Positions 1 through 44,993 of a stretch of 50,291 nt of DNA are shown piece after piece. The position numbers were made by a program, and so were the translations under genes. A model generated the notes under the pieces. It saw only the letters and a list, made by a program, of their open reading frames with translations, was not told the origin of the DNA and ran no database searches. The DNA comes from an uncultured Synergistales bacterium (GTDB lineage Bacteria; Synergistota; Synergistia; Synergistales; Aminobacteriaceae), in NCBI GenBank assembly GCA_905233725.1, contig CAJOEM010000005.1, positions 1-50,291 on the forward strand. The letters run 5' to 3'. Position 1 is the stretch's first letter; each line of letters begins with the position of its first letter.

Positions 1-59
1 CACATGAACGACGCAATCGTAATCACGAATATCACAGCCGTAAATTTTTTCGCACGCAT
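1..59 (-). CDS. N-terminal fragment of the gene downstream of the MBOAT acyltransferase
   Basis: Only the first 19 codons are inside the window. The ATG at 59-57 follows GGGGG with an 8-nt spacer. The visible peptide starts MRAKKFTAVIFVI and looks like a signal anchor or signal peptide. Genes that directly follow AlgI-type MBOAT acyltransferases often encode secreted or membrane-anchored partner proteins (AlgJ/AlgX/DltD-like), so that is the best guess from context. The family cannot be determined from this fragment. Confidence 0.5.
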   Translation of the reverse strand, partial: MRAKKFTAVIFVITIASFM

Positions 60-213
60 AATTTGCACCCCCAGCTAGAAATTAAAGTATATGAACGGAG
101 TCACGAGAACATAGCGCATGAACGACGCAATCATAATCACGAATATCACAGCCGTAAATTTTTTCGCACGCATAATTTGCACTCCCAGTTAGAAATTAAA
201 GTATATGAACGGA
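3..213. repeat. Tandem direct repeat, 114-bp period, spanning a gene junction
   Basis: Bases 3-99 recur at 117-213 with only a few substitutions, an offset of exactly 114 bp. Read on the minus strand, each copy holds the last codons of the MBOAT gene, its stop, a Shine-Dalgarno sequence and the first 19 or so codons of the next gene. About 18 bp (100-116) separate the copies. The array may continue beyond the left edge. Confidence 0.9.
75..173 (-). pseudogene. 32-codon chimeric ORF made by the junction duplication
   Basis: This small ORF starts with the same ATG and leader as the downstream gene (MRAKKFTAVIFVI, then Met where the other copy has Thr) and ends with the MBOAT C-terminus (PFIYFNF) and a TAG stop. 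It has its own Shine-Dalgarno sequence (GGGAG, 8-nt spacer). It is best explained as the by-product of a 114-bp tandem duplication. It may still be translated as a small hydrophobic peptide, but nothing here shows that it has a function. Confidence 0.6.
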
Positions 214-7893: not shown

Positions 7894-10800
7894 TTATTGT
7901 TCCGGAGATTCTGCCAAAATCATCGGTGAATATTTTTCCTCACGCGCCTTCAGCCAAACTGCAACGATAATTTCGCGGCTTTCAGGCACAGTTTCGATTG
8001 CGTTATCGAGGCTTTGATCGCTGGACTCGTAGAAGCCGACTAATTCGCTCTCACCAGAATCTTCGCTCCAGATTAATTTCGCATTCTCGGGAACATCATC
8101 GCCAAATTTCACCGTAAATTCGTAGACGTTATCTTCAGTTATCAAAATCTCCGGCAAAATCGCAGCAATCATTACATCCCCAGAACTTACGGATTCAAAT
8201 CCAGATTCAAATTCAGATTCTTGACTTGAACTAGCATCGTTCGCAAATTCTATCCCCGAAATATCCTCGAGTGATTCAGACTCAGACTCGGCTTCAGATT
8301 CAGACTCAGATTCAAATTCAAGTTCTGATTCAGTTTTCGCAGCCTCAGATTCGAGTTTGGGTTTTGCAGCTGTAGTCGCGTCACCAACTGTCAAACTCAG
8401 AGTTTTCGAATCCGTGCCAACTTCGTTCGTTGCGGTGAATGTCAAGTCGAAAGTTCCGTCCTCTGTCGGAGTTCCTGACAAAGTTCCGCTGCTGGCGTTG
8501 AAGCTCATGCCATCTGGTAAATCGCCATCAACAGACCAGGTTATCTTCGTTGAACCCGTAGCTGCGAGTTGCTGTTTGTAAGAATTATCTAATGTCGCAG
8601 GCGTGAGAGTTGCAGTCGTGATTTTCGGAGCAACTTTTGAAATGATCGTGATTTTCTTGCTGGCAGTTCCGTCAGAATTTGCAGCTGTGACAGTGACCGT
8701 GAGTTTTTGCTCAGTTGTCGGGAGCGTGCCGGATAATTTCGCTCTGTGAGTATCTGTCTGCGTGAGCGTGAGATTGCCCTGTCCTGATGCGCTGAACGTT
8801 ATGAAATCTGTTCCCGTGACTTCGAAATCAAGATCGACACTTGTTCCGGCGGCTTGCGTGTAACTAGTTGTGCTGAGATTTTGGAAAACCGGTTTTGTGC
8901 CATTGACGGTGAATTTTGCGGATTTGTTAGCTTTCGAGACAGCGTTTTCAGCCGTGACATTCACAGGAAGATTCGCGAATGAATATTTCGGAGTGCCGAT
9001 GATTTTCGCAGTGCCAGAATCCGGATCAGGTTCGAAGCTCAATCCCAAATCTTCAAGCTTAGTGATATTATTCTTCGTCATGTCTGTTGTCGGTGTGAAA
9101 GTGTACGCGAAAGTAATTGGTTTCGTTCCTGTTGCTGAGATTTTAGAGCCGGAGTATTCCTGATCGACTTTGCCTTTTGCGAGTGAGAATGTCAGATTCG
9201 GCGCAACACCTTTCACTGTCAAATTGAGAGTTTTGCTCGTAGTTCCGGCAGCATTTGTTGTCGTGAAAGTCACATCGTACGAACCAATTTCGGTCGGAGT
9301 TCCCGAGATAGTAGCTGATGTTCCCATTGAATTTTGCGTGAGAGTGAGCGTGTCTGGCAATCCTGAAACGTCCCAGGTTATGCCGGTTGCACCTTTAGCT
9401 GAGAGTTTCACGGAATATTTCGCGTCAGTCGTGGCATTTTTGAGCGAAGTAGTTGTGATTGTCGGAGGCTCGATGATATTCAGCGTAATCTTTTTCGAGG
9501 CGGAACCTGAAGAGTTCGTCGCAGTGACCGTAACTTTCATAGTCTGCGCACTTGTCGGAGCTTTGCCGGATAATCTCGCTGTCTTGCCGTCCTGAGTGAA
9601 TGTGAGATTTCCATGACCAGATGACTTGAACGTGATGAAATCTGTTCCTGTGACTGCAAAATCGATAGAAATATCTGAGCTTGCAACGTACGTGTAGTTT
9701 GATTCAGTCGGTAGGAATCCACTCGAGTTTGATCCAGCTGATGAACTTGCAACATACGTGTAGCTTGATTCAGTCGGAGCTGTGAAAGCTGGTTTTGCTC
9801 CGGTGACTGTGAATTTTGCGGTTTTGTTTTGCTTTGAGACATCGTTCGAGGCAGTGATGCTCAAGAGCAAATTCGTGAAAGCATATTTCGGAGTGCCGGT
9901 GATTTTCGCAGTTCCTGAATCTGAATCTTGTTCGAGTTTCAAGCCCAAATCTTCGAGCGTAGAGATTCCGTTAGCTTTCATTTCGGTCGTTGGAGTGAAC
10001 GCGCAGGTGAAATTAATCGGTTTCGTACCAGTCGCGGAAATTTTTGAGCCGGAATATTCCTGATCGACAGCACCTTTTCCAAACGAGAGACTCAGACTTG
10101 GCGCAACACCTTCAACTTTGAGCGTGAGATTCCTGCTGGTAGAGCCTGCTGCATTTGTGACTGTGAATGTTACGTTGTAAGTTCCGATTTCAGTAGGAGT
10201 TCCTGAGATTGTCGCTGATGTTCCCGTTGCATTTTGCGTTAGTGTGAGCGTGTCTGGCAATCCAGAAACTCCCCAAGTAATGCCAGTACCCTTGGCTGCA
10301 AGTTTTACGGAATATTTCGCGTCAGTTTTTGCGTTATTGAGCGAGGTAGTTGTGATTTTTGGAGGCTCGATGATGTCCAGCGTAATCTTTTTCGAGGCAG
10401 AACCCGAAGCATTCGTCGCAGTTACGCTAATTTTTAAAGTTTGCGCTGTAGTTGGAGCTTTACCGTATAATCTCGCAGTTTTTTCGCCGTCCTGAGTGAA
10501 TGTGAGATTTCCATGACCAGATGACTTGAACGTGATGAAATTCGTGCCCGTGACTTTGAAATCAAGATCAATATCTGAGCTTGCAACGTACGTGTAGCTT
10601 GATTCAGTCGGAGCTGTGAAAGCTGGTTTTGCTCCGGTGACGGTGAGTTTCGCGGACTTGCTTTGCTTTGAAACATCGTTCGATGCTGTGACATTCAAGA
10701 CTAAATCCGAGATCGCGTATATCGGAGTACCGGTGATTTTCGCTGTTCCTGAATCTGGATATTGTTCGAGTTCCAAACCCAAATCTTTGAGCGTAGAGAT

Positions 10801-13800
10801 TCCGTTAGCTTTCATTTCGGTCGTTGGAGTGAGAGTGCATGTGAAATTAATTGGTTTCGTACCAGTCGCGGAGATTTTTGAGCCGGAATATTCCTGATCA
10901 ACAGCACCTTTTCCAAACGAGAGACTCAGACTTGGCGCAACACCTTCAACTTTGAGCGAGAGATTCTTGGTAGTAGTTCCTGCTGTATTCGTCGCAGTGA
11001 AAGTCAGGTTGTAAGTTCCGATTTCAGTCGGAGTTCCTGAGAGCGTCGCTGATGTGCCGTTCGTGTTCTGAGTTAGTGAGAGCGTGTCGGGCAAGCCTGA
11101 AACGTCCCAGGAAATATTCACAGAACCCTTGGCTGAAAGTTTTACGGAATATTTCGTGTCAGTTTTCGCAGAAGCCAGTGAAGTAGTTGTGATTGTCGGA
11201 GGCTCGATTATGTTCAGCGTGATTTTCTTCGTGGCAGTACCTGAAGCATTCGCAGCTTTGACTGTCACGGATAATGTTTTCGCACTTGTCGGAGCTTTGC
11301 CGGATAATTTCGCGGTCTTGTCGCCAGTCTGGGAGAATGTCAGCGGACTGTAGCCAGTTGCTGTGAACGTGATAACTTTTGTGCCTGTGACTTCGAAATC
11401 GAGATCAATATCTGAACCCGTATTGAACGTATATTGAGTTTCAGATTCGTCCGGCGTTGTGAAAGCTGGTTTTTCACCTTCGACTGTAAATTTCACGGTG
11501 CTTGTTGCTTTCGATACGACGTTTTTAGCCGTGATATTCACCGGTAAAGACTTGAACGCAAAATTAGGAGTGCCGGTTATATTCGCAGTACCGGATTCTG
11601 AATCTTGTTCGAGTTTCAAGCCCAAATCTTCGAGTGTGAGAATATTTGCCTTTTTCATCTCAGCTGTAGGCGTAATCGTGCAATCGAAGCTGATTGGTTT
11701 TGTGCCGCTTGCTGAAATTTCTGAGGCGGAGTATTCACGTTCAGCGATTCCGTTAGGGAGTTTAGCCGTGATTTTTGGAGCTACGCCGTTGACTTTGAGT
11801 GTGAGATTTTTCGTGACAATTCCGACGTCGTTTGAGAGTTTGAGCGTGACGTTGTAAGTTGCGACTTCAGTTGGAGTTCCCTCGATTGTTGCTGAAGTTC
11901 CGGCAGAGTTCTGTTGTGTGAAAGTGAGCGTGTCCGGAAGTCCTGAAGCTGTCCAGATAATATTCGCAGAGCCTTTCGCGGTGAGTTTCGCGTAATATTT
12001 CGTGTCAGTCGTTGCGTCCGGAAGGGAACTTGTCGAGAGCGCAGGTTTTTCGTAAATCGTAATTGTGAATTGTTTTGTCGCGCTGCCGTAAGAATTTTTC
12101 GCGGTGATTGTCGTTGTAAATGTTCCGGTTTTGGTAGGTTTGCCGGAGATTGTGAGGGTATTGCTGTTGAAACTCAAGCCGTTCGGAAGATTCCTGGTCG
12201 TAAACGTGAGATTTGTTCCGGAAATGCTGAGCTGTTCGGAATAACTTTCGCCGAGTATGCCATCGCTTAAAGTTGTAGTGTTGATTACCGGTGCTGAAGC
12301 TTCCTGATTCATCGGCACTACAGGAGATGTTCCACCCGTAACTGTGAACGCTTTGATGCAGGCGTTGTAGGAATTTCCCTTTGACCAACTTGAGTTTGAA
12401 CCGTAATCCGAGAAGAAACTGCCCGATTCGATTTCAGCATTGTCCGTGTAGCCTGAAATTTTTGATTCGACTGCGGTTTGTGAATTGCTGAATTGCACGA
12501 CGACAGAGAAATAATCGCCTTTTGTCAGTGGGATTTGTTTGTGCAGTGTGATCGTGTGATAACCTGCTGTTGATATTGTCTCGTTCTGAGCGTGTACGAG
12601 ATTTCCCGATGTTGGCGCAGAATTTACGGATTTCAGACCGGTGTAGACGTTAATTTTGCAAGTGACGTTGTTGTTGGTCGTGAATAAGCCTACTTCGGTC
12701 AATTTCTCGTTCTTGTCACGTAACGCTTGGAAGACATTTGCTGCGAATTTGTATGAAACAGTTCCGACCCAGCCAAGAGCGTCATAATAGTAGCATTGCA
12801 TGTCAGAATTTGCGGGTTCAACGATGAATGCGCAACCGTCAGAAATCAGCTGTTCGTATGACATCCAGAAATAGCCGTTGTCGCCGACGTTGCCGTTACC
12901 GTTTGTGCCCCATATATCGCCCCAGGAATTTTTCACGAGCCACGCGCCATTACTTGATGGTTTGTTCTTGAAGTCCTCTTTGGGGAAATCATCGTCCCAG
13001 CCAACGAGCAAAACTGCGTGATCGATTCTGTTCGCGCTATTGTAGAAAGTTGTGTGTCCGTTGATTTTCGCGTATGAAGAGTATGCGCTGCCGTAATAGC
13101 TTATCTGGACAGCTCCGTGAGTCATGATTCGCTGCTTTATGTTTTCTGATGAGTCTACGGCTCGCGAATTTGTTGTGAAAGTTGCCTCTTTCAGGCGCAG
13201 AACTCTGGGATAACTTTCGGGCGTTGAGTATGCCGGAGCGGTTCTGTAGGGCAATACTGAGTCAAGAACGGGTCCGTCAAGTCGTGAATATAACGCGATC
13301 GTGTAAAGAGAGTTGCCTCCGTTGCCGAGAATCGTGTTCATGTTGGAATTGGTTTTGTAATTCTCGTAGGCTTTTGAGTAATCGGAATTTTTCATCGCGA
13401 ACCAGGCTAAGTGCATCACGGATAGATCCATTTTGGAATTTCCCTGCCGCATGTAATTTGATTCCATTGCGCCTATTCCAGCGAATGCCCAACACGTACC
13501 GTCATCGCCCTGATCTTTCACGCTTGTGAGGTAATTTCCGGCAGTTCTGAGATCGTATTTGCTTGGGATTGTCGTAGCTTTGTCGCGCATAGAAATTTCC
13601 TGAGGCGGATTATCTGCGAGATGTGACAGGTCAATCGGAATTGGAATGTACCCGGTTGGTTTAAGATTTTCGGATTCTGAGCCGGGATCTGATTCGGAAT
13701 CTGAATTTGCTGTTGCTCTGTCACGAGTTATGACCGGAGAATTTTGTTCACTTTGCCAGCGTAGAAATTCTTCGGAGAATGGTTCTAAATCAGTTTTTGC

Positions 13801-13899
13801 TGGTTCGAAAGTATCTTCAGCGAAAGTTCCCGTCGCGAAAAATGCGAACACGAACATCATTGCCAGTATTAGAATTTTCGTGTATTTGCTTGTGTACAT
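7894..13899 (-). CDS. Secreted papain-family (C1A) cysteine peptidase with multiple Ig-like repeats
   Basis: The protein has 2001 residues. A signal peptide (1-28, ending ATGTFA) is followed by a Ser/Glu-rich spacer. The C1A catalytic domain (about 112-365) has the oxyanion Gln130 and nucleophile Cys136 in KDQGDDGTCWAF, His294 in IDHAVLLVGW and Asn324 in LVKNSWG. A lectin-like domain (about 370-520) follows, then some fourteen He_PIG/Ig-like domains (about 530-1860) in a higher-order pattern. The C-terminus is a Glu/Ser-rich linker and a small terminal domain. It should act outside the cell on proteins or peptides, with the repeats as a stalk or binding surface. The ATG at 13899 has GGAG eight nt upstream; a TTG 18 nt earlier is less likely. 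The C-terminus has no obvious Synerg-CTERM or other sorting signal. Confidence 0.9.
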   Translation of the reverse strand: MYTSKYTKILILAMMFVFAFFATGTFAEDTFEPAKTDLEPFSEEFLRWQSEQNSPVITRDRATANSDSESDPGSESENLKPTGYIPIPIDLSHLADNPPQEISMRDKATTIPSKYDLRTAGNYLTSVKDQGDDGTCWAFAGIGAMESNYMRQGNSKMDLSVMHLAWFAMKNSDYSKAYENYKTNSNMNTILGNGGNSLYTIALYSRLDGPVLDSVLPYRTAPAYSTPESYPRVLRLKEATFTTNSRAVDSSENIKQRIMTHGAVQISYYGSAYSSYAKINGHTTFYNSANRIDHAVLLVGWDDDFPKEDFKNKPSSNGAWLVKNSWGDIWGTNGNGNVGDNGYFWMSYEQLISDGCAFIVEPANSDMQCYYYDALGWVGTVSYKFAANVFQALRDKNEKLTEVGLFTTNNNVTCKINVYTGLKSVNSAPTSGNLVHAQNETISTAGYHTITLHKQIPLTKGDYFSVVVQFSNSQTAVESKISGYTDNAEIESGSFFSDYGSNSSWSKGNSYNACIKAFTVTGGTSPVVPMNQEASAPVINTTTLSDGILGESYSEQLSISGTNLTFTTRNLPNGLSFNSNTLTISGKPTKTGTFTTTITAKNSYGSATKQFTITIYEKPALSTSSLPDATTDTKYYAKLTAKGSANIIWTASGLPDTLTFTQQNSAGTSATIEGTPTEVATYNVTLKLSNDVGIVTKNLTLKVNGVAPKITAKLPNGIAEREYSASEISASGTKPISFDCTITPTAEMKKANILTLEDLGLKLEQDSESGTANITGTPNFAFKSLPVNITAKNVVSKATSTVKFTVEGEKPAFTTPDESETQYTFNTGSDIDLDFEVTGTKVITFTATGYSPLTFSQTGDKTAKLSGKAPTSAKTLSVTVKAANASGTATKKITLNIIEPPTITTTSLASAKTDTKYSVKLSAKGSVNISWDVSGLPDTLSLTQNTNGTSATLSGTPTEIGTYNLTFTATNTAGTTTKNLSLKVEGVAPSLSLSFGKGAVDQEYSGSKISATGTKPINFTCTLTPTTEMKANGISTLKDLGLELEQYPDSGTAKITGTPIYAISDLVLNVTASNDVSKQSKSAKLTVTGAKPAFTAPTESSYTYVASSDIDLDFKVTGTNFITFKSSGHGNLTFTQDGEKTARLYGKAPTTAQTLKISVTATNASGSASKKITLDIIEPPKITTTSLNNAKTDAKYSVKLAAKGTGITWGVSGLPDTLTLTQNATGTSATISGTPTEIGTYNVTFTVTNAAGSTSRNLTLKVEGVAPSLSLSFGKGAVDQEYSGSKISATGTKPINFTCAFTPTTEMKANGISTLEDLGLKLEQDSDSGTAKITGTPKYAFTNLLLSITASNDVSKQNKTAKFTVTGAKPAFTAPTESSYTYVASSSAGSNSSGFLPTESNYTYVASSDISIDFAVTGTDFITFKSSGHGNLTFTQDGKTARLSGKAPTSAQTMKVTVTATNSSGSASKKITLNIIEPPTITTTSLKNATTDAKYSVKLSAKGATGITWDVSGLPDTLTLTQNSMGTSATISGTPTEIGSYDVTFTTTNAAGTTSKTLNLTVKGVAPNLTFSLAKGKVDQEYSGSKISATGTKPITFAYTFTPTTDMTKNNITKLEDLGLSFEPDPDSGTAKIIGTPKYSFANLPVNVTAENAVSKANKSAKFTVNGTKPVFQNLSTTSYTQAAGTSVDLDFEVTGTDFITFSASGQGNLTLTQTDTHRAKLSGTLPTTEQKLTVTVTAANSDGTASKKITIISKVAPKITTATLTPATLDNSYKQQLAATGSTKITWSVDGDLPDGMSFNASSGTLSGTPTEDGTFDLTFTATNEVGTDSKTLSLTVGDATTAAKPKLESEAAKTESELEFESESESEAESESESLEDISGIEFANDASSSQESEFESGFESVSSGDVMIAAILPEILITEDNVYEFTVKFGDDVPENAKLIWSEDSGESELVGFYESSDQSLDNAIETVPESREIIVAVWLKAREEKYSPMILAESPEQ
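8632..12047. repeat. Higher-order coding repeat: four C-A-B Ig-domain triplets
   Basis: Within the peptidase gene, three related but distinct Ig-like domains recur in the same order four times, followed by one more C-type domain. C begins near TTTSL..A.TD.KY, A begins VAP and contains EYSGSKISATGTKP, and B begins KPAF and contains LSGKAPT. The unit is about 278 codons: matching bases at 10061 and 10895 are 834 bp apart. Copies two and three are the most alike; for example GKGAVDQEYSGSKISATGTK is identical in both. This points to duplication by recombination. Confidence 0.88.
9680..9812. repeat. 66-bp internal duplication in one B-type Ig domain
   Basis: The stretch beginning ttgcaacgta at 9681 recurs at 9747 (ttgcaacata), an offset of 66 bp, and keeps the reading frame. 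It adds 22 residues to the third B domain, so the TES.YTYVASS motif occurs twice there and once in the second B domain. Confidence 0.85.
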
Positions 13900-14029
13900 T
13901 TTCGAAACTCCTTTCAAGATATTAGTGTATTAATAATTATAATTCGGTGTAATTTGCGCTTGGCTTTATTATAATGTGTTTGTTACAAATTATTACAAAA
14001 AGTTGCAAATTTTTCACAGGAGAATTTTC

Positions 14030-39217: not shown

Positions 39218-40294
39218 CTACTTCGCTTTGACCTCGATTGACGACATCAAGCTTCTGAACGCATTATTAAATGCCTCGACACCATCAGCCAACAATTTCG
39301 CACAAACTGCCTTGAGATCAATTCCGGAATCTGCGAGTTCTTTTGCGCGTGCTTTTGCTCCGTCAAGATCTTTTTCGAGCGTGAGAGCTGCTTTGCCGTG
39401 ATCAACGAATGCGACCATAGTTGCTGGTGGAATCGTGTTGACAGTGTGCGGCGCGATCAAATCATCGACGTATTTCGTGTCAGAATACGCTTTGTTCTTC
39501 GTGCCGGTGCTTGCCCATAACGGTCTCTGAAGTTTTGCTCCCTTGGCTTCAAGAGCTTCCCATTCCGAACCGGAGAAAATTTTCTTGAAGCGCTCATACG
39601 TGAACTTGATGCTGTCCGTGGCAATTTTCCCGCACAAATCTGTTTTGCCCTTTTCCGTGAGCAATTTATCAACTGCAGAATCGACTCGGCTGACAAATAC
39701 TGACGCAACTGACGAAACTTTCGGATCGAGATTCTTTTCGACACGAGCTTTAACTCCGCGAATATAAGCTTCAGCAACCTGCGCGTATTGTTCTTCTGAG
39801 AAAATCAGCGTTGAGTTCACGTTCACTCCGGACGCGATGCACTCTTCAAGAGCAGAAATTCCCTCGGGTGTTGCAGGAATCTTTATCATTACGTTTGGAC
39901 GATTGAGAGCCTTGAATAATCTCTTAGCTTCCGAAACTGTCGTGTCACGATCCGACGCTAACAACGGGCTGACTTCGAGGCTTACATAACCATCAAGACC
40001 GTTTGTCTTATCATAGACCGGTTTCAAAATATCCGCAGCAGTTCCGACTTCCTGAAGTGTTAATACCTCGTAGATTTCCGACGAATTTTTCCCGGCCTCC
40101 GCCAGCGATTTCACTTCTGAATCATAATCACTCGTTTTCGCAATCGCGCCCTCAAAAATCGATGGGTTAGTCGTAACGCCAACAACGCCCTTCGCAATCC
40201 AATCAGCAAGACCGCCCGACGCAATCAAATCACGGCTAATGTAATCCAGCCACGCACTCTGACCCAAATTGAAAATCTCGTGTAAAGTTGTCAT
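39218..40294 (-). CDS. tal: Transaldolase (long, cyanobacterial/actinobacterial-type)
   Basis: The 358-residue enzyme exchanges a dihydroxyacetone unit between sugar phosphates in the pentose phosphate pathway. The Schiff-base lysine is in NVMIKIPATPEG. VVGVTTNPSIFEGAI near the N-terminus and RPLWASTGTKNKAYSDTKYV near residue 270 match the longer transaldolase group. The ATG at 40294 has AGGAGG seven nt upstream; a start at 40312 would overlap that site. It closes the operon and links its products to pentose phosphates. Confidence 0.94.
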   Translation of the reverse strand: MTTLHEIFNLGQSAWLDYISRDLIASGGLADWIAKGVVGVTTNPSIFEGAIAKTSDYDSEVKSLAEAGKNSSEIYEVLTLQEVGTAADILKPVYDKTNGLDGYVSLEVSPLLASDRDTTVSEAKRLFKALNRPNVMIKIPATPEGISALEECIASGVNVNSTLIFSEEQYAQVAEAYIRGVKARVEKNLDPKVSSVASVFVSRVDSAVDKLLTEKGKTDLCGKIATDSIKFTYERFKKIFSGSEWEALEAKGAKLQRPLWASTGTKNKAYSDTKYVDDLIAPHTVNTIPPATMVAFVDHGKAALTLEKDLDGAKARAKELADSGIDLKAVCAKLLADGVEAFNNAFRSLMSSIEVKAK

Positions 40295-40321
40295 AAACAT
40301 TTCCTCCTGCAAATCTGCAAA

Positions 40322-41167
40322 TTATTTTTGATTCTTCAACATTAACATTCTGTCTACTACATATTTTTTAACTTCTGACATTCCCTGTACACCGTATTTT
40401 TTCGGATCAAAATTATCAGGATTTTCTGACATGTGTTTTTTCAAGCCGTTTGTCAATGCGATTCTCAAATCCGTAGCGTAATTCACTTTGCATATGCCGC
40501 GTTTTATGCACTCGACAACCTGTTCATCAGGAACGCCCGATGTCCCGTGTAAAACAAGCGGAATATCTACAACTGCGCGAATTTTCTCCAGGACTTCGAG
40601 ATTGACTTTCGGAACGCCTTTGTAAACTCCGTGAGCAGTTCCGATGCCGACAGCTAATAAATCAACCTGAGTTTTCTCGACAAATTCACGAGCTTCATCA
40701 GGATCTGTGTATGGATTCTCGTCTGAGTTTTCCAAATCGTCTTCTTTGCCGCCAACTTTTCCCAACTCTCCTTCAACAGGAACTCCGGCGCAGTGGCAAG
40801 CATCAGTCACGGATTTTGTCAGCGCGATATTTCCGGCTAAACTTAATTTGCTGCCATCAATCATAATCGACGTGTAACCAGCTCTCAGAGCCTGCATTGC
40901 GATTTCAAAGCTGTTTCCGTGATCCAAGTGACACACGACCGGAACACTAGCACGTTTAGCAGCGGTCTTGATATTCGCGTAGTAAAAATCCAGCCCGGCA
41001 TATCTCACCGTAGAAGGCGTTGTCTGCATTATAACCGGTGAATTTGTTTCCTCAGCAGCAGCTAACACCGCCATAACCATTTCCATATTTTCAACATTGA
41101 ACGCTCCAACTGCATAATGATTTCTCTGAGCGTCCTGCAAAAGTTCCTTTGATGTTACGAGTGGCAT
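40322..41167 (-). CDS. Class II fructose/tagatose-bisphosphate aldolase
   Basis: The 281-residue zinc aldolase cleaves fructose-1,6- or tagatose-1,6-bisphosphate. Metal ligands and phosphate contacts are visible: VVCHLDHGNSFE, EGELGKVGGKED, GIGTAHGVYKGVPK and LVLHGTSGVPDEQV. Length and the start MPLVTSKELL fit the GatY/KbaY/FbaA group; a GatD-like dehydrogenase and a LacC/FruK-like kinase upstream favour tagatose or fructose bisphosphate made from a 6- or 1-phosphate. GGAGGAA precedes the ATG. A duplicated block sits just upstream. Confidence 0.9.
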   Translation of the reverse strand: MPLVTSKELLQDAQRNHYAVGAFNVENMEMVMAVLAAAEETNSPVIMQTTPSTVRYAGLDFYYANIKTAAKRASVPVVCHLDHGNSFEIAMQALRAGYTSIMIDGSKLSLAGNIALTKSVTDACHCAGVPVEGELGKVGGKEDDLENSDENPYTDPDEAREFVEKTQVDLLAVGIGTAHGVYKGVPKVNLEVLEKIRAVVDIPLVLHGTSGVPDEQVVECIKRGICKVNYATDLRIALTNGLKKHMSENPDNFDPKKYGVQGMSEVKKYVVDRMLMLKNQK

Positions 41168-41649
41168 TCAAAATTCCTCCTTCATAAATATTCTCGCTAA
41201 AAAATTCTTACATTCGGGAAAATCTCGTCAAAATCTTTCGGTGCAAAATCTCCAGTATCTGGTGACAAAGCCGACGCTGCAGAAACTGCAACAGCATATC
41301 TAAGAGCTTCGTCAGGTTTAAAATTCCGCGACATCGCAACCGCAAATGCTCCAGTCATCGCATCACCGCAGCCAACAGTATTTACAGCTTCGAGCTTTGG
41401 CATTCAAAATTCTTCCTTCATAAATATTCTCGCTAAATATTCTCGCTAAAAAATTCTTACGTTCGGGAAAATCTCGTCAAAATCTTTCGGTGCAAAATCT
41501 CCCGTATCTGGTGACAAAGCCGATGCTGCCGAAACTGCAACAGCATATCTAAGAGCTTCGTCAGGTTTAAAATTCCGCGACATCGCAACCGCAAATGCTC
41601 CAGTCATCGCATCACCACAGCCAACAGTGTTCACAGCTTCGAGCTTTGG
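41165..41649. repeat. Tandem duplication (236-bp unit) across the pfkB-fba junction
   Basis: Bases 41165-41400 and 41401-41649 are near-identical copies. Each includes an ATG with its upstream ribosome site, the intergenic ATAAATATTCTCGCTAA block and the last 66 codons of the PfkB gene. The second copy has an extra 13-bp repeat of the TATTCTCGCTAAA block (41421-41449). There are seven substitutions within the coding part. The junction has a CCA microhomology between the aldolase start (ATGCCA) and the kinase sequence (CCAAAG). Confidence 0.92.
41197..41403 (-). pseudogene. 68-codon duplicate of the PfkB kinase C-terminus fused to the aldolase start
   Basis: The ORF begins MP, taken from the aldolase start, and continues with KLEAVNTVGCGDAMTGAF through to the end of the kinase, 100% identical in protein to the parent's C-terminus despite seven nucleotide differences. 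It includes the anion-hole/catalytic GCGD motif but lacks the substrate-binding half, so it cannot be a kinase. Its ribosome site is degraded to GGAAGAA from GGAGGAA. A remnant of tandem duplication is most likely; a retained small protein is possible. Confidence 0.75.
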
Positions 41650-42375
41650 TGGTTTGCCGATTAACACGCCATCATCGCACGCAAGCAACGCGCCTTCTGA
41701 GCCAAGCGACACAACTACGAATTCAACGCCCGTTTTGTGAAGCGCAATCGCTGAGTCTTTCACATCATCGAGAGTTTTGGGTTTTATTCCGGTGATTTGT
41801 TCGATCTCGTCTTTGTTGGGTTTGATCATGTTAGGCTTTGTGTCGGATTCAAGCGCACGTTTCAGATATTCGCCGCTCGTGTCGAGAATTACGTGTTTGC
41901 CAGATTCGCGAGTTATCCTAACGAGTTCGCCGTAAATATTTTTCCTAACGCCTACAGGAGCTGAACCTGACATTGTTACAACTGAGCTTGTCTCGATAAT
42001 TTCCGGGAATCTCGCGAGGAATTTCGAAATATCTTCGGGACTTATTTCAAAACCGGGTTCTAAATATTCCGTTGAGCCAAATTTCGGATCTAATATATTT
42101 ATGCAGCTGCGTGTTTCTCCGGCTACGTGTTCGAAATCAGTAATCAATCCTGCGTTTGCTGCCATAGCTTCGAGCCATTGACCGTTAAATCCTCCGATGA
42201 AGCCTGTGACTTTGACTTTTTCGCCGCAGATGTGAGCGACTTTTGCAACATTCAAACCCTTTCCACCAGCAACGTTACGAACTTCTCGAACGCGCATAAC
42301 AGTTCCGTTCTCAATCGCATTACTCATATAATACGCTTTGTCAATCGAGGCGTTAAGTGTAACAGTTGTGATCAT
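41446..42375 (-). CDS. PfkB-family 1-phosphofructokinase / tagatose-6-phosphate kinase
   Basis: The 309-residue sugar kinase of the LacC/FruK branch phosphorylates fructose 1-phosphate or tagatose 6-phosphate to the bisphosphate. TVTLNASIDKAYYM, VRNVAGGKGLNVAKVAHICG, MIKPNKDEIEQITG, VVVSLGSEGALLA and NTVGCGDAMTGAFAVA are the family motifs; the last carries the catalytic Asp. GAGGA lies ten nt before the ATG. It follows the GatD-like gene by six nt. Which ketose phosphate it uses is not decided by sequence; the neighbouring dehydrogenase points to tagatose 6-phosphate. Confidence 0.9.
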   Translation of the reverse strand: MITTVTLNASIDKAYYMSNAIENGTVMRVREVRNVAGGKGLNVAKVAHICGEKVKVTGFIGGFNGQWLEAMAANAGLITDFEHVAGETRSCINILDPKFGSTEYLEPGFEISPEDISKFLARFPEIIETSSVVTMSGSAPVGVRKNIYGELVRITRESGKHVILDTSGEYLKRALESDTKPNMIKPNKDEIEQITGIKPKTLDDVKDSAIALHKTGVEFVVVSLGSEGALLACDDGVLIGKPPKLEAVNTVGCGDAMTGAFAVAMSRNFKPDEALRYAVAVSAASALSPDTGDFAPKDFDEIFPNVRIF

Positions 42376-42381
42376 GATTCG

Positions 42382-43464
42382 CTATTCCTCGGAATTTACC
42401 AGAATTTTTCCCTTCACAAGTCCCGGAGTTTTGAACCATTCGAAAGCTTCTGAGATTTTGCTCAACGGAACGATCTTGTATATAAACGATTCGTCGAACT
42501 TGAGCTGACCTGTGGCGAAATAATGCGACGTAAATTCCCATTCATGACCCGGGAACGGTGCTGAATATGACATCCATGATCCCGTCAGAATAAATTCCTT
42601 GCGATTAATATTTTCCCATTCATCAATCGTGAAAGTTAATTCTCGTGTCGGAGTGCCGATGAAACATACTTGTGCTTTGTTAGCTGCGAGTTTGAAAGCC
42701 ATCTTCATCGTTATGACATTGCCGGCAGTTTCGTAGACGTAATCGAAGCCGCGAGCGTCCGTGAAATCCAACGCTTGTTTCATGAAATCCGGATTTTTCG
42801 TGTTAATGCCAGCGAATGAACATGAATCTGCCAGACGTTCTGCTAGTTGTAATCTCTCATCGACAATATCGAACACAGCAATTTTTCTCGCACCGAAAAT
42901 TTTCGCCCATTGCATCGTCATGATCCCGATTGTTCCACTGCCCAAAATCGCAACGGATTTTCCGCCCTGATAATTCACGCGCTCAAGCCCATGTAACGCA
43001 ACTGTAGCCGGCTCAAAGAATGCGCCCTGAATAAAGCTCACACTCTCAGGGAATTTCACGACGTTTTTCTCCGGAATAGAAATATATTCAGCGAAACTTC
43101 CAAATTCACGCGAGCCAATAAAGCTGTAATGTTTGCATAGCGAGTAATTGCCTTTCTGACAATCTTCGCACTTCATGCACGGTACTAACGGAATGCCCGC
43201 AACTCTGTCGCCAACTTTCACACTCGAAACATTCGCGCCGACTTCCTCAACAACTCCCGAAAATTCGTGACCCAAAACATTCGGGAAGAAATGGCACGCA
43301 TCACCATTAACTCTCGGAACATCAGAGCCACAAATTCCTGTATACTTGACTTTCACAAGAACTCGTCCGTCTGAAACTTTTGGCTTATCAATCTCTTCGT
43401 AGCGAATATCGTTTTTAGCGTGTACGACTCCTGCCATCATTTTTGCACTCATGCCTGCGTTCAT
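42382..43464 (-). CDS. Zinc-dependent alcohol dehydrogenase, GatD-like (galactitol-1-phosphate 5-dehydrogenase type)
   Basis: The 360-residue medium-chain dehydrogenase has the catalytic-zinc site YTGICGSDVPRVNG and VLGHEFSGVVEEVG, the structural-zinc cysteines in VPCMKCEDCQKGNYSLCKHY, the next segment FIGSREFGSFAEYI and the NAD loop AILGSGTIGIMTMQWAKIFG. IGSREFGSFAEY and GSWMSYSAPFPGHEWE closely resemble GatD, which oxidises galactitol 1-phosphate to tagatose 6-phosphate. Other polyols or polyol phosphates (xylitol, sorbitol) are possible. The ATG overlaps the preceding kinase stop (ATGA). Confidence 0.86.
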   Translation of the reverse strand: MNAGMSAKMMAGVVHAKNDIRYEEIDKPKVSDGRVLVKVKYTGICGSDVPRVNGDACHFFPNVLGHEFSGVVEEVGANVSSVKVGDRVAGIPLVPCMKCEDCQKGNYSLCKHYSFIGSREFGSFAEYISIPEKNVVKFPESVSFIQGAFFEPATVALHGLERVNYQGGKSVAILGSGTIGIMTMQWAKIFGARKIAVFDIVDERLQLAERLADSCSFAGINTKNPDFMKQALDFTDARGFDYVYETAGNVITMKMAFKLAANKAQVCFIGTPTRELTFTIDEWENINRKEFILTGSWMSYSAPFPGHEWEFTSHYFATGQLKFDESFIYKIVPLSKISEAFEWFKTPGLVKGKILVNSEE

Positions 43465-44954
43465 GCTGATAATTTTCCCCCTGATTTTTGCATCAAATTC
43501 TTCAGAGATTCGTATAACTTGATATATGTCTCGTAAGTTTTATTATACATCGCGTAATTCTCAAAATTCGGTTCGTGTTCGCGAGTGATCCTTACGGTTT
43601 TGGAAACAGCTTCGTCATAATCCCGATAAATTCCAACACCAACTCCGGCTAACATTGCAGCTCCAAGTGTTGTAGCAGTGTCACTTGATGGCACGAAAAT
43701 TTTGCGATTCGTTACGTCGGATTTAATCTGCGTCCATAACAGCGAATTTGCAGAACCTCCCATTGAGCGTAAATCGTGAATTTTCGCACCTGCTTCTTCA
43801 GCTACTGTCAAATTATGACGCAGCGCCAACGCTACACCTTCCATACATGCTCGCACGAAATGTGCCTTTGATTTTGCAAAATCTATCCCGTAAAATACGC
43901 CTTTAGCATTCGGATCCCAAATCGGAGTTCGTTCACCCATCATGTAAGGCAAGAACACAAGTCCATCACAGCCAGCCGGAATTTTCGCAGCCAAGTTATT
44001 TATCTCAGAAAAATCTGTCGCGAAATTTTCCGAGAACCAGCGTATCACACCGCCACCGCCAGTAGTTCCGCCTTGCAGGAGCCATTTGTTCGGGATAACG
44101 TGAAAGCTCAGAATCAATCTTTCGTCCGAAACGCATTCGTTCGTACATATGCTCATACCGCCAGCCTGACCGCCCTGTTCCTGAGTTTCGCCGTCGTGAA
44201 TTACCCCCGCTCCCAAAGTTCCGCACGCCGCATCAAGCCCGCCAGCAACAACCGGAGTTCCCTCGCATAAGCCAGTTTGTATCGCAGCAACATGACTAAC
44301 GCAGCCGATGACTTTATCACACGCGACGATTTCCGGCAGAAAATTCTTGTTGAGCTGCATTTCTGAGATCATTCTGTCGTCCCATTTGCCCGTTCTCATG
44401 TCGAAACAGTGCCAGCCGTAACCTTGGCTCAAATCCTGAGAATATTCACCCGTGAGCTTGAACGCAATATATCCGTTACATTGCAGAATCTTGTTAATAC
44501 GCGAGTAAATTTCCGGCATGAATTTCTTGTACCAGAGAACTTTCGGAGTAGTGTAACCCGGCTTCATAGGATTGCCCGATATACTGAAAATATTTTCGCG
44601 TCCCAAATTCCGGTTTAATTCGTCGCAAATTTCCTGAGAACGCGTATCGAACCAAAGAGGCGTGTTGCATAAGCATTCGCCCTGATTATCCATCGCAACA
44701 GCTGCCCAGCTTATGCCGTCGATCCCGATTGCAGAAATTTCCGAAGCTTTGATATTCCCGTCCGTTAGAATTTCGCGTATACAAGCTATAACAGCATTCC
44801 ACCAGTCCTCGGGATTTTGTTCAGCCCAACCGTCTTGCGTGTGAATTGCGTGATATTTCCCGTTGAGGCTTGTTATGACATTTCCGCTCGTATCGAATAC
44901 AGCAACTTTGCAGGCACTCGTTCCAATGTCTATTCCAAGTAAAAGTTCACGCAT
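43461..44954 (-). CDS. FGGY-family carbohydrate kinase (xylulokinase-like)
   Basis: The 497-residue kinase resembles XylB. The N-terminal ATPase motif is LLLGIDIGTSACKVAVFD, with AIGIDGISWAAVAMDNQGEC, TPLWFDTRSQEI, VVAGGLDAACGTLGAG (catalytic Asp), FLPYMMGERTPIWDPNAKG, and LRSMGGSANSLLWTQIKSDV. It would phosphorylate a ketose or polyol. The ATG at 44954 follows GGGGG; a promoter lies at 44994-45022. It starts the inner unit kinase-GatD-PfkB-aldolase-transaldolase. Substrate could be xylulose, a hexulose or a polyol. Confidence 0.9.
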   Translation of the reverse strand: MRELLLGIDIGTSACKVAVFDTSGNVITSLNGKYHAIHTQDGWAEQNPEDWWNAVIACIREILTDGNIKASEISAIGIDGISWAAVAMDNQGECLCNTPLWFDTRSQEICDELNRNLGRENIFSISGNPMKPGYTTPKVLWYKKFMPEIYSRINKILQCNGYIAFKLTGEYSQDLSQGYGWHCFDMRTGKWDDRMISEMQLNKNFLPEIVACDKVIGCVSHVAAIQTGLCEGTPVVAGGLDAACGTLGAGVIHDGETQEQGGQAGGMSICTNECVSDERLILSFHVIPNKWLLQGGTTGGGGVIRWFSENFATDFSEINNLAAKIPAGCDGLVFLPYMMGERTPIWDPNAKGVFYGIDFAKSKAHFVRACMEGVALALRHNLTVAEEAGAKIHDLRSMGGSANSLLWTQIKSDVTNRKIFVPSSDTATTLGAAMLAGVGVGIYRDYDEAVSKTVRITREHEPNFENYAMYNKTYETYIKLYESLKNLMQKSGGKLSA

Positions 44955-44993
44955 TGATAACTTGTTCCCCCTTACTAAACACATTTTTTCACA

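Follow-up and report, generated by a model that had tools for sequence, protein, structure and literature searches.

A tandem duplication with a 3-bp junction microhomology at a kinase-aldolase gene boundary of an uncultured Synergistales bacterium, with copies that differ only silently

Tandem duplications with short junctions are known from the spontaneous rearrangements of Salmonella, in which direct duplications carry a short repeated sequence at their endpoints and the experimentally supported junction microhomologies measure about 8-12 bp or more (PMC3411829). In homology-facilitated illegitimate recombination (HFIR), the illegitimate junction typically shows 3-10 bp of microhomology, and sequenced examples include partial duplications of 109-950 bp produced by single crossovers (PMC3240628). 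Partial gene duplicates and truncated pseudogenes provide a further point of comparison, with a C-terminal fragment positioned beside an intact parent gene. The duplication described here lies in a 50,291-nucleotide stretch of contig CAJOEM010000005.1 (assembly GCA_905233725.1; hereafter, the window), from a putatively gut-type genome, and resembles each of these systems in part. It is a direct duplication with a short repeated sequence at its endpoints, as in Salmonella, but its microhomology is only 3 bp and its copies are 3.4% different. The junction trinucleotide, CCA, falls within the HFIR range, and a single illegitimate join of 3-10 bp would account for both the short junction and the allele-like divergence of the copies; however, HFIR is usually observed as an insertion of foreign DNA accompanied by a deletion. 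Unlike partial duplicates and truncated pseudogenes, the fragment of the kinase gene (pfkB) shows no decay at the protein level.

The duplicated segment belongs to a minus-strand, operon-like run of genes encoding a xylulokinase-like protein (FGGY kinase), a galactitol-1-phosphate-dehydrogenase-like enzyme, a PfkB kinase, a class II aldolase, and a transaldolase, which together form an operon of the sugar-alcohol type at window positions 39218-44984 (Table 1). No close homologue of the PfkB kinase was found among the genus's 42 other species, PfkB homologues in the family are only about 26-34% identical, and the closest proteins within the searched collection are clostridial (Blautia, Clostridiales; 54-57% identical). 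Because the kinase lacks a close congeneric homologue and is closest to those of Clostridia, the operon was probably acquired horizontally.

Table 1. Features of the duplicated gene boundary and examples of other abutting duplications in the genome (window positions, except where a label beginning with C is given).
Feature	Position	Strand	Basis
GatY/Fba-like class II ketose-bisphosphate aldolase of 281 aa, not disrupted by the duplication	40322..41167	-	profile match
Second copy: pfkB 3' end, stop, spacer, Shine-Dalgarno AAGGAGG, true aldolase start	41162..41400	-	sequence comparison
ORF of 68 codons in which the aldolase ATG runs in frame into the PfkB C-terminus; differs from the parent by seven silent changes	41197..41403	-	ORF list and alignment
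3-bp microhomology at the tandem junction, CCA on the minus strand	41398..41400	-	
First copy: pfkB 3' end, stop, spacer with extra 13-bp repeat, Shine-Dalgarno AAGGAAG, copied aldolase start ATGCCA	41398..41649	-	sequence comparison
Tandem repeat of 13 bp (TAAATATTCTCGC, 2.3 copies), confined to the first copy's spacer	41421..41450	.	
PfkB-family hexose kinase (1-phosphofructokinase / tagatose-6-phosphate kinase-like), intact, 309 aa, duplication parent	41446..42375	-	TIGR03168, 304.9 bits (cut-off 216.4)
Galactitol-1-phosphate-5-dehydrogenase-like enzyme, upstream in the same operon-like run	42382..43464	-	profile match
Abutting duplications, examples	C41 2224-2592; C42 5958-6369; C2:90818-91391; C3:62682-63038; C29:19739-20449		

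At the boundary between the kinase and aldolase genes, positions 41185-41400 and 41434-41649 form a tandem direct repeat that is 97% identical and far above chance (BLAST E 6.5e-102). When the edge of the aldolase gene is included, the repeat consists of a 236-bp unit plus 13 inserted bases, and the unit runs from the final 66 codons of the PfkB-type kinase through the stop codon, a spacer, and a ribosome site into the opening bases of the class II aldolase gene. The two copies are abutting and direct, the arrangement that characterizes microhomology-mediated tandem duplication; at their junction, which contains no N-gap, the ATGCCA of the aldolase is joined to the kinase sequence CCAAAGCTC, with CCA common to both, and a microhomology of this length has a chance probability of 0.06 on its own. 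Because the duplication straddles the border between co-directional neighbors, neither full gene is disrupted; such a duplication is therefore tolerated, and the fragment begins with the start codon of the next gene. The pfkB C-terminus left between the two genes is promoter-less.

Codon alignment confirmed the claim of the initial annotation that this fragment copies the PfkB C-terminus with synonymous differences only: seven codons differ, all at the third position (GTG/GTA, AAC/AAT, TGT/TGC, TCG/TCT, GCA/GCG, ACG/ACT, and AAC/AAT), and there are no amino acid differences. Only about 26% of the possible single changes in the duplicated coding stretch are silent, and the probability that all seven would be silent is near 1e-4 if every change occurred on a neutral branch, and about 0.002 when it is conditioned on seven differences with a constrained parent supplying its share. 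The expectation, also put forward in that annotation, that a neutral relic should gather amino acid changes was borne out quantitatively: in a two-branch model with dS about 0.16, about 12 such changes are expected on a neutral fragment, none are seen, and the neutral model is worse than the constrained one by 2lnLR 11.6. The fragment thus does not carry the non-silent changes that would accumulate at the neutral rate in a pseudogene relic, independent neutral decay is rejected, and the statistical surprise is genuine. An ordinary tandem duplication followed by neutral drift, in which the all-silent pattern is a matter of luck, draws some credit from the small number of differences, from the choice of this case among many features, and from the decay of some other boundary duplicates (C2 and C3), but the conditional probability and the likelihood ratio given above make it very improbable. 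Nor can the suggestion that the parent acquired all of the changes be upheld: both copies have had equal time, since the age of the fragment is the same as that of its split from the parent. Polarization of the seven silent sites by outgroups was rejected because the nearest PfkB relatives are only 54-57% identical; at that distance, silent sites are saturated and the codons are inconsistent. Codon usage is balanced and gives no signal for the direction of change.

A genome-wide scan for duplications, covering all but 2.3 kb of sequence (five small contigs were read as N), revealed a class of direct duplications, local and abutting, that are about 90-550 bp long and 82-99% identical; several of them cross gene boundaries. 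Two of these share the anatomy of the pfkB case, namely those at the end of a P-type ATPase gene (C41) and at the end of a ketoacyl synthase III-like gene (C42), in both of which the ribosome site and start codon of the next gene are found at the right edge. The junction microhomologies are 3 bp for pfkB and 6 and 2 bp for these two sister cases, and the chance of a microhomology of at least 6 bp is 0.003. In C41, the parent has Ser where the fragment and the orthologues from all eight sister species have Ala; in C42, FGSG of the parent stands against FGAG in the fragment and FGAG, FGVG, or FGGG in the homologues. In these comparisons, the conserved residue is the one in the fragment and the derived one is in the intact gene, which is the reverse of what a decaying relic would show. 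Outgroup polarization covers these two sister cases only, and C42 also contains one unpolarized Ala/Gly difference. No ATG, GTG, or TTG is present ahead of the preserved frame of the C41 fragment, and translation is therefore unlikely to be its preserver; the possibility that C41 is a frameshifted relic was rejected, as the 2-bp difference falls in an AT run at the edge of the junction, downstream of which the preserved frame continues unbroken. The boundary duplications in C2 and C3 look decayed, so that not every pair fits an allelic pattern, and relics of the ordinary kind also exist in this genome. In a sister species, no abutting pair above 85% was found in 400 kb, compared with about a dozen in the 1.87 Mb here, although these counts are small.

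Other repeats were also observed. A tandem duplication at the contig start (window 3-213; period 114, 97% identical) takes in the end of the gene at 189-1559 together with the beginning of the one that follows, and a 2007-codon ORF at window 7894-13917, probably encoding a large repetitive surface protein, contains long internal DNA repeats that are 67-79% identical over 0.6-1.4 kb. Two genes with repetitive C-termini (GRSEG / GEERGIAI repeats), at C18:22477-23620 and C29 1321-2275, each precede a short ORF that duplicates part of the C-terminal region of that gene. A dispersed family of about 130-200 bp, with around ten copies at 88-97% identity (C2 8341-8541, C48, C9, C11, C6, C18, C13, C4, and C20), had no Rfam match in the stretches tested. 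The sequence of the pfkB duplication was not found in viral contigs.

Residues 2-68 of the 68-residue ORF correspond to the PfkB C-terminus, amounting to 66 codons when the junction codon CCA is set aside. As had been noted initially, the ORF captured the aldolase start together with a modified ribosome site: its start codon is a copy of the aldolase ATG and is preceded by AAGGAAG, as opposed to AAGGAGG before the aldolase. It thus possesses the in-frame start codon and ribosome-binding site expected of a translated microprotein, and its Shine-Dalgarno pairing (-6.4 kcal/mol) is about as strong as that of pfkB (-5.9 kcal/mol) but much weaker than that of the aldolase (-12.4 kcal/mol). These signals, the contrast between zero amino acid and seven silent changes, and the significantly worse fit of a dN/dS of 0.3 or more than of 0.05 if the copies evolved independently would all agree with translation from the captured start and purifying selection on the amino acid sequence of the fragment. 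However, the fragment amounts to no more than roughly the final fifth of a kinase, its orthologue was not found in a search that included the 42 congeneric species, and equivalent fragments elsewhere in this genome have retained conserved residues despite lacking an in-frame start codon. Such a PfkB C-terminal piece is not known to have a stand-alone role. In-frame capture of a start codon is a one-in-three event by chance, and the captured ATG is out of frame in both comparable cases (C41 and C42). Translation under constraint, one of the options raised in the initial annotation, is accordingly feasible but not needed, given that the C41 and C42 fragments are better preserved than their parents, and we consider it decidedly unlikely; that the duplication made a translated 68-residue protein kept by selection, for example because it regulates or stabilizes the kinase or serves as a translated spacer against polarity in the operon, seems improbable. 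The ORF may be weakly translated as a by-product, without need of selection.

Gene conversion between the copies could keep the fragment matched to its constrained parent, and tandem copies that are 97% identical, with an 86-bp identical tract in the middle, are good substrates for it. Nevertheless, a tract of this length is ordinary for seven third-position differences (P = 0.12), direct tandem repeats that recombine mostly delete or expand, and silent differences would be no safer from conversion than any others; this explanation is therefore an unlikely one.

The properties of the assembly also bear on how the copies are read. It is a De Bruijn draft of 57 contigs with k about 99 and a reported contamination of 0, in which an overlap of exactly 99 bases recurs at many contig ends and exact repeats are never longer than 101 bases. 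With k about 99, identical or near-identical tandem copies would collapse, and therefore only diverged ones are resolvable: the 86-bp tract, the longest identical run between the pfkB copies, is below the 99-bp k-mer limit, and the identical run of the other abutting pairs never exceeds 99 bases. The divergence of resolved tandem copies is thus partly forced by the method and is not to be read as a biological signal. A draft of this kind might also have joined two strain versions of one gene boundary end to end, and such a mosaic would yield the same picture; both copies read as functional alleles, and another tandem pair (C31) is split by an N-gap. Against this, a join within a contig and without N requires junction-spanning k-mers, and only 3 bp are common at the junction; four of the five N-gaps have no duplication across them; and a search of the assembly for haplotype-duplicate contigs yielded no long ones, so that a mosaic artefact is a doubtful source of the duplication. 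Scaffolding gaps as a source of tandem copies are unsupported except for the C31 pair (C31:20601-21846), in which two 600-bp copies, 81% identical, flank a 44-base N-gap and which is possibly either a scaffolding artefact or a real duplication.

The three options of the initial annotation (constraint, recombination between the copies, and changes confined to the parent) were prompted by a pattern that does need explanation, but they omitted allelic or strain divergence preceding the relic state and the effect of assembly at k about 99. Because the C41 and C42 fragments keep conserved residues, and C41 does so without a start codon, a common cause that requires no function of the fragments is preferred. 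We give an even chance to the proposal that the pfkB copies are two functional alleles that diverged before the relic state and were brought into tandem by recombination between strains; the copies would then already have been different when they were placed side by side. One copy would be the resident allele and the other that of a sister strain, and the two would differ only silently because both had been shaped by selection on full-length, functional kinases. At dS about 0.16, a selectively useless direct repeat of 236 bp would be expected to have been deleted already, which favors an allelic origin. Most probably, related DNA would have recombined by homologous exchange at the aldolase side and been joined illegitimately, through microhomology, at the kinase side. 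Homologues of ComEC, DprA, and MutS are encoded in the genome and make uptake and recombination plausible, although this evidence is permissive only.

Allelic divergence in a tandem duplication joined by microhomology, rather than a constrained microprotein, is thus the likely cause of the pattern, and the pfkB case is a new instance of a known rearrangement, ordinary in kind. It illustrates how tandem copies that have diverged only silently can look as though a residual gene piece were under selection, and how the k-mer limit of short-read assembly determines which tandem duplications are seen at all. If several of the boundary duplications do carry the alleles of two strains, they would constitute a record of recombination between sister strains with illegitimate joins, and this record would help to follow gene flow in bacteria that have not been cultured.
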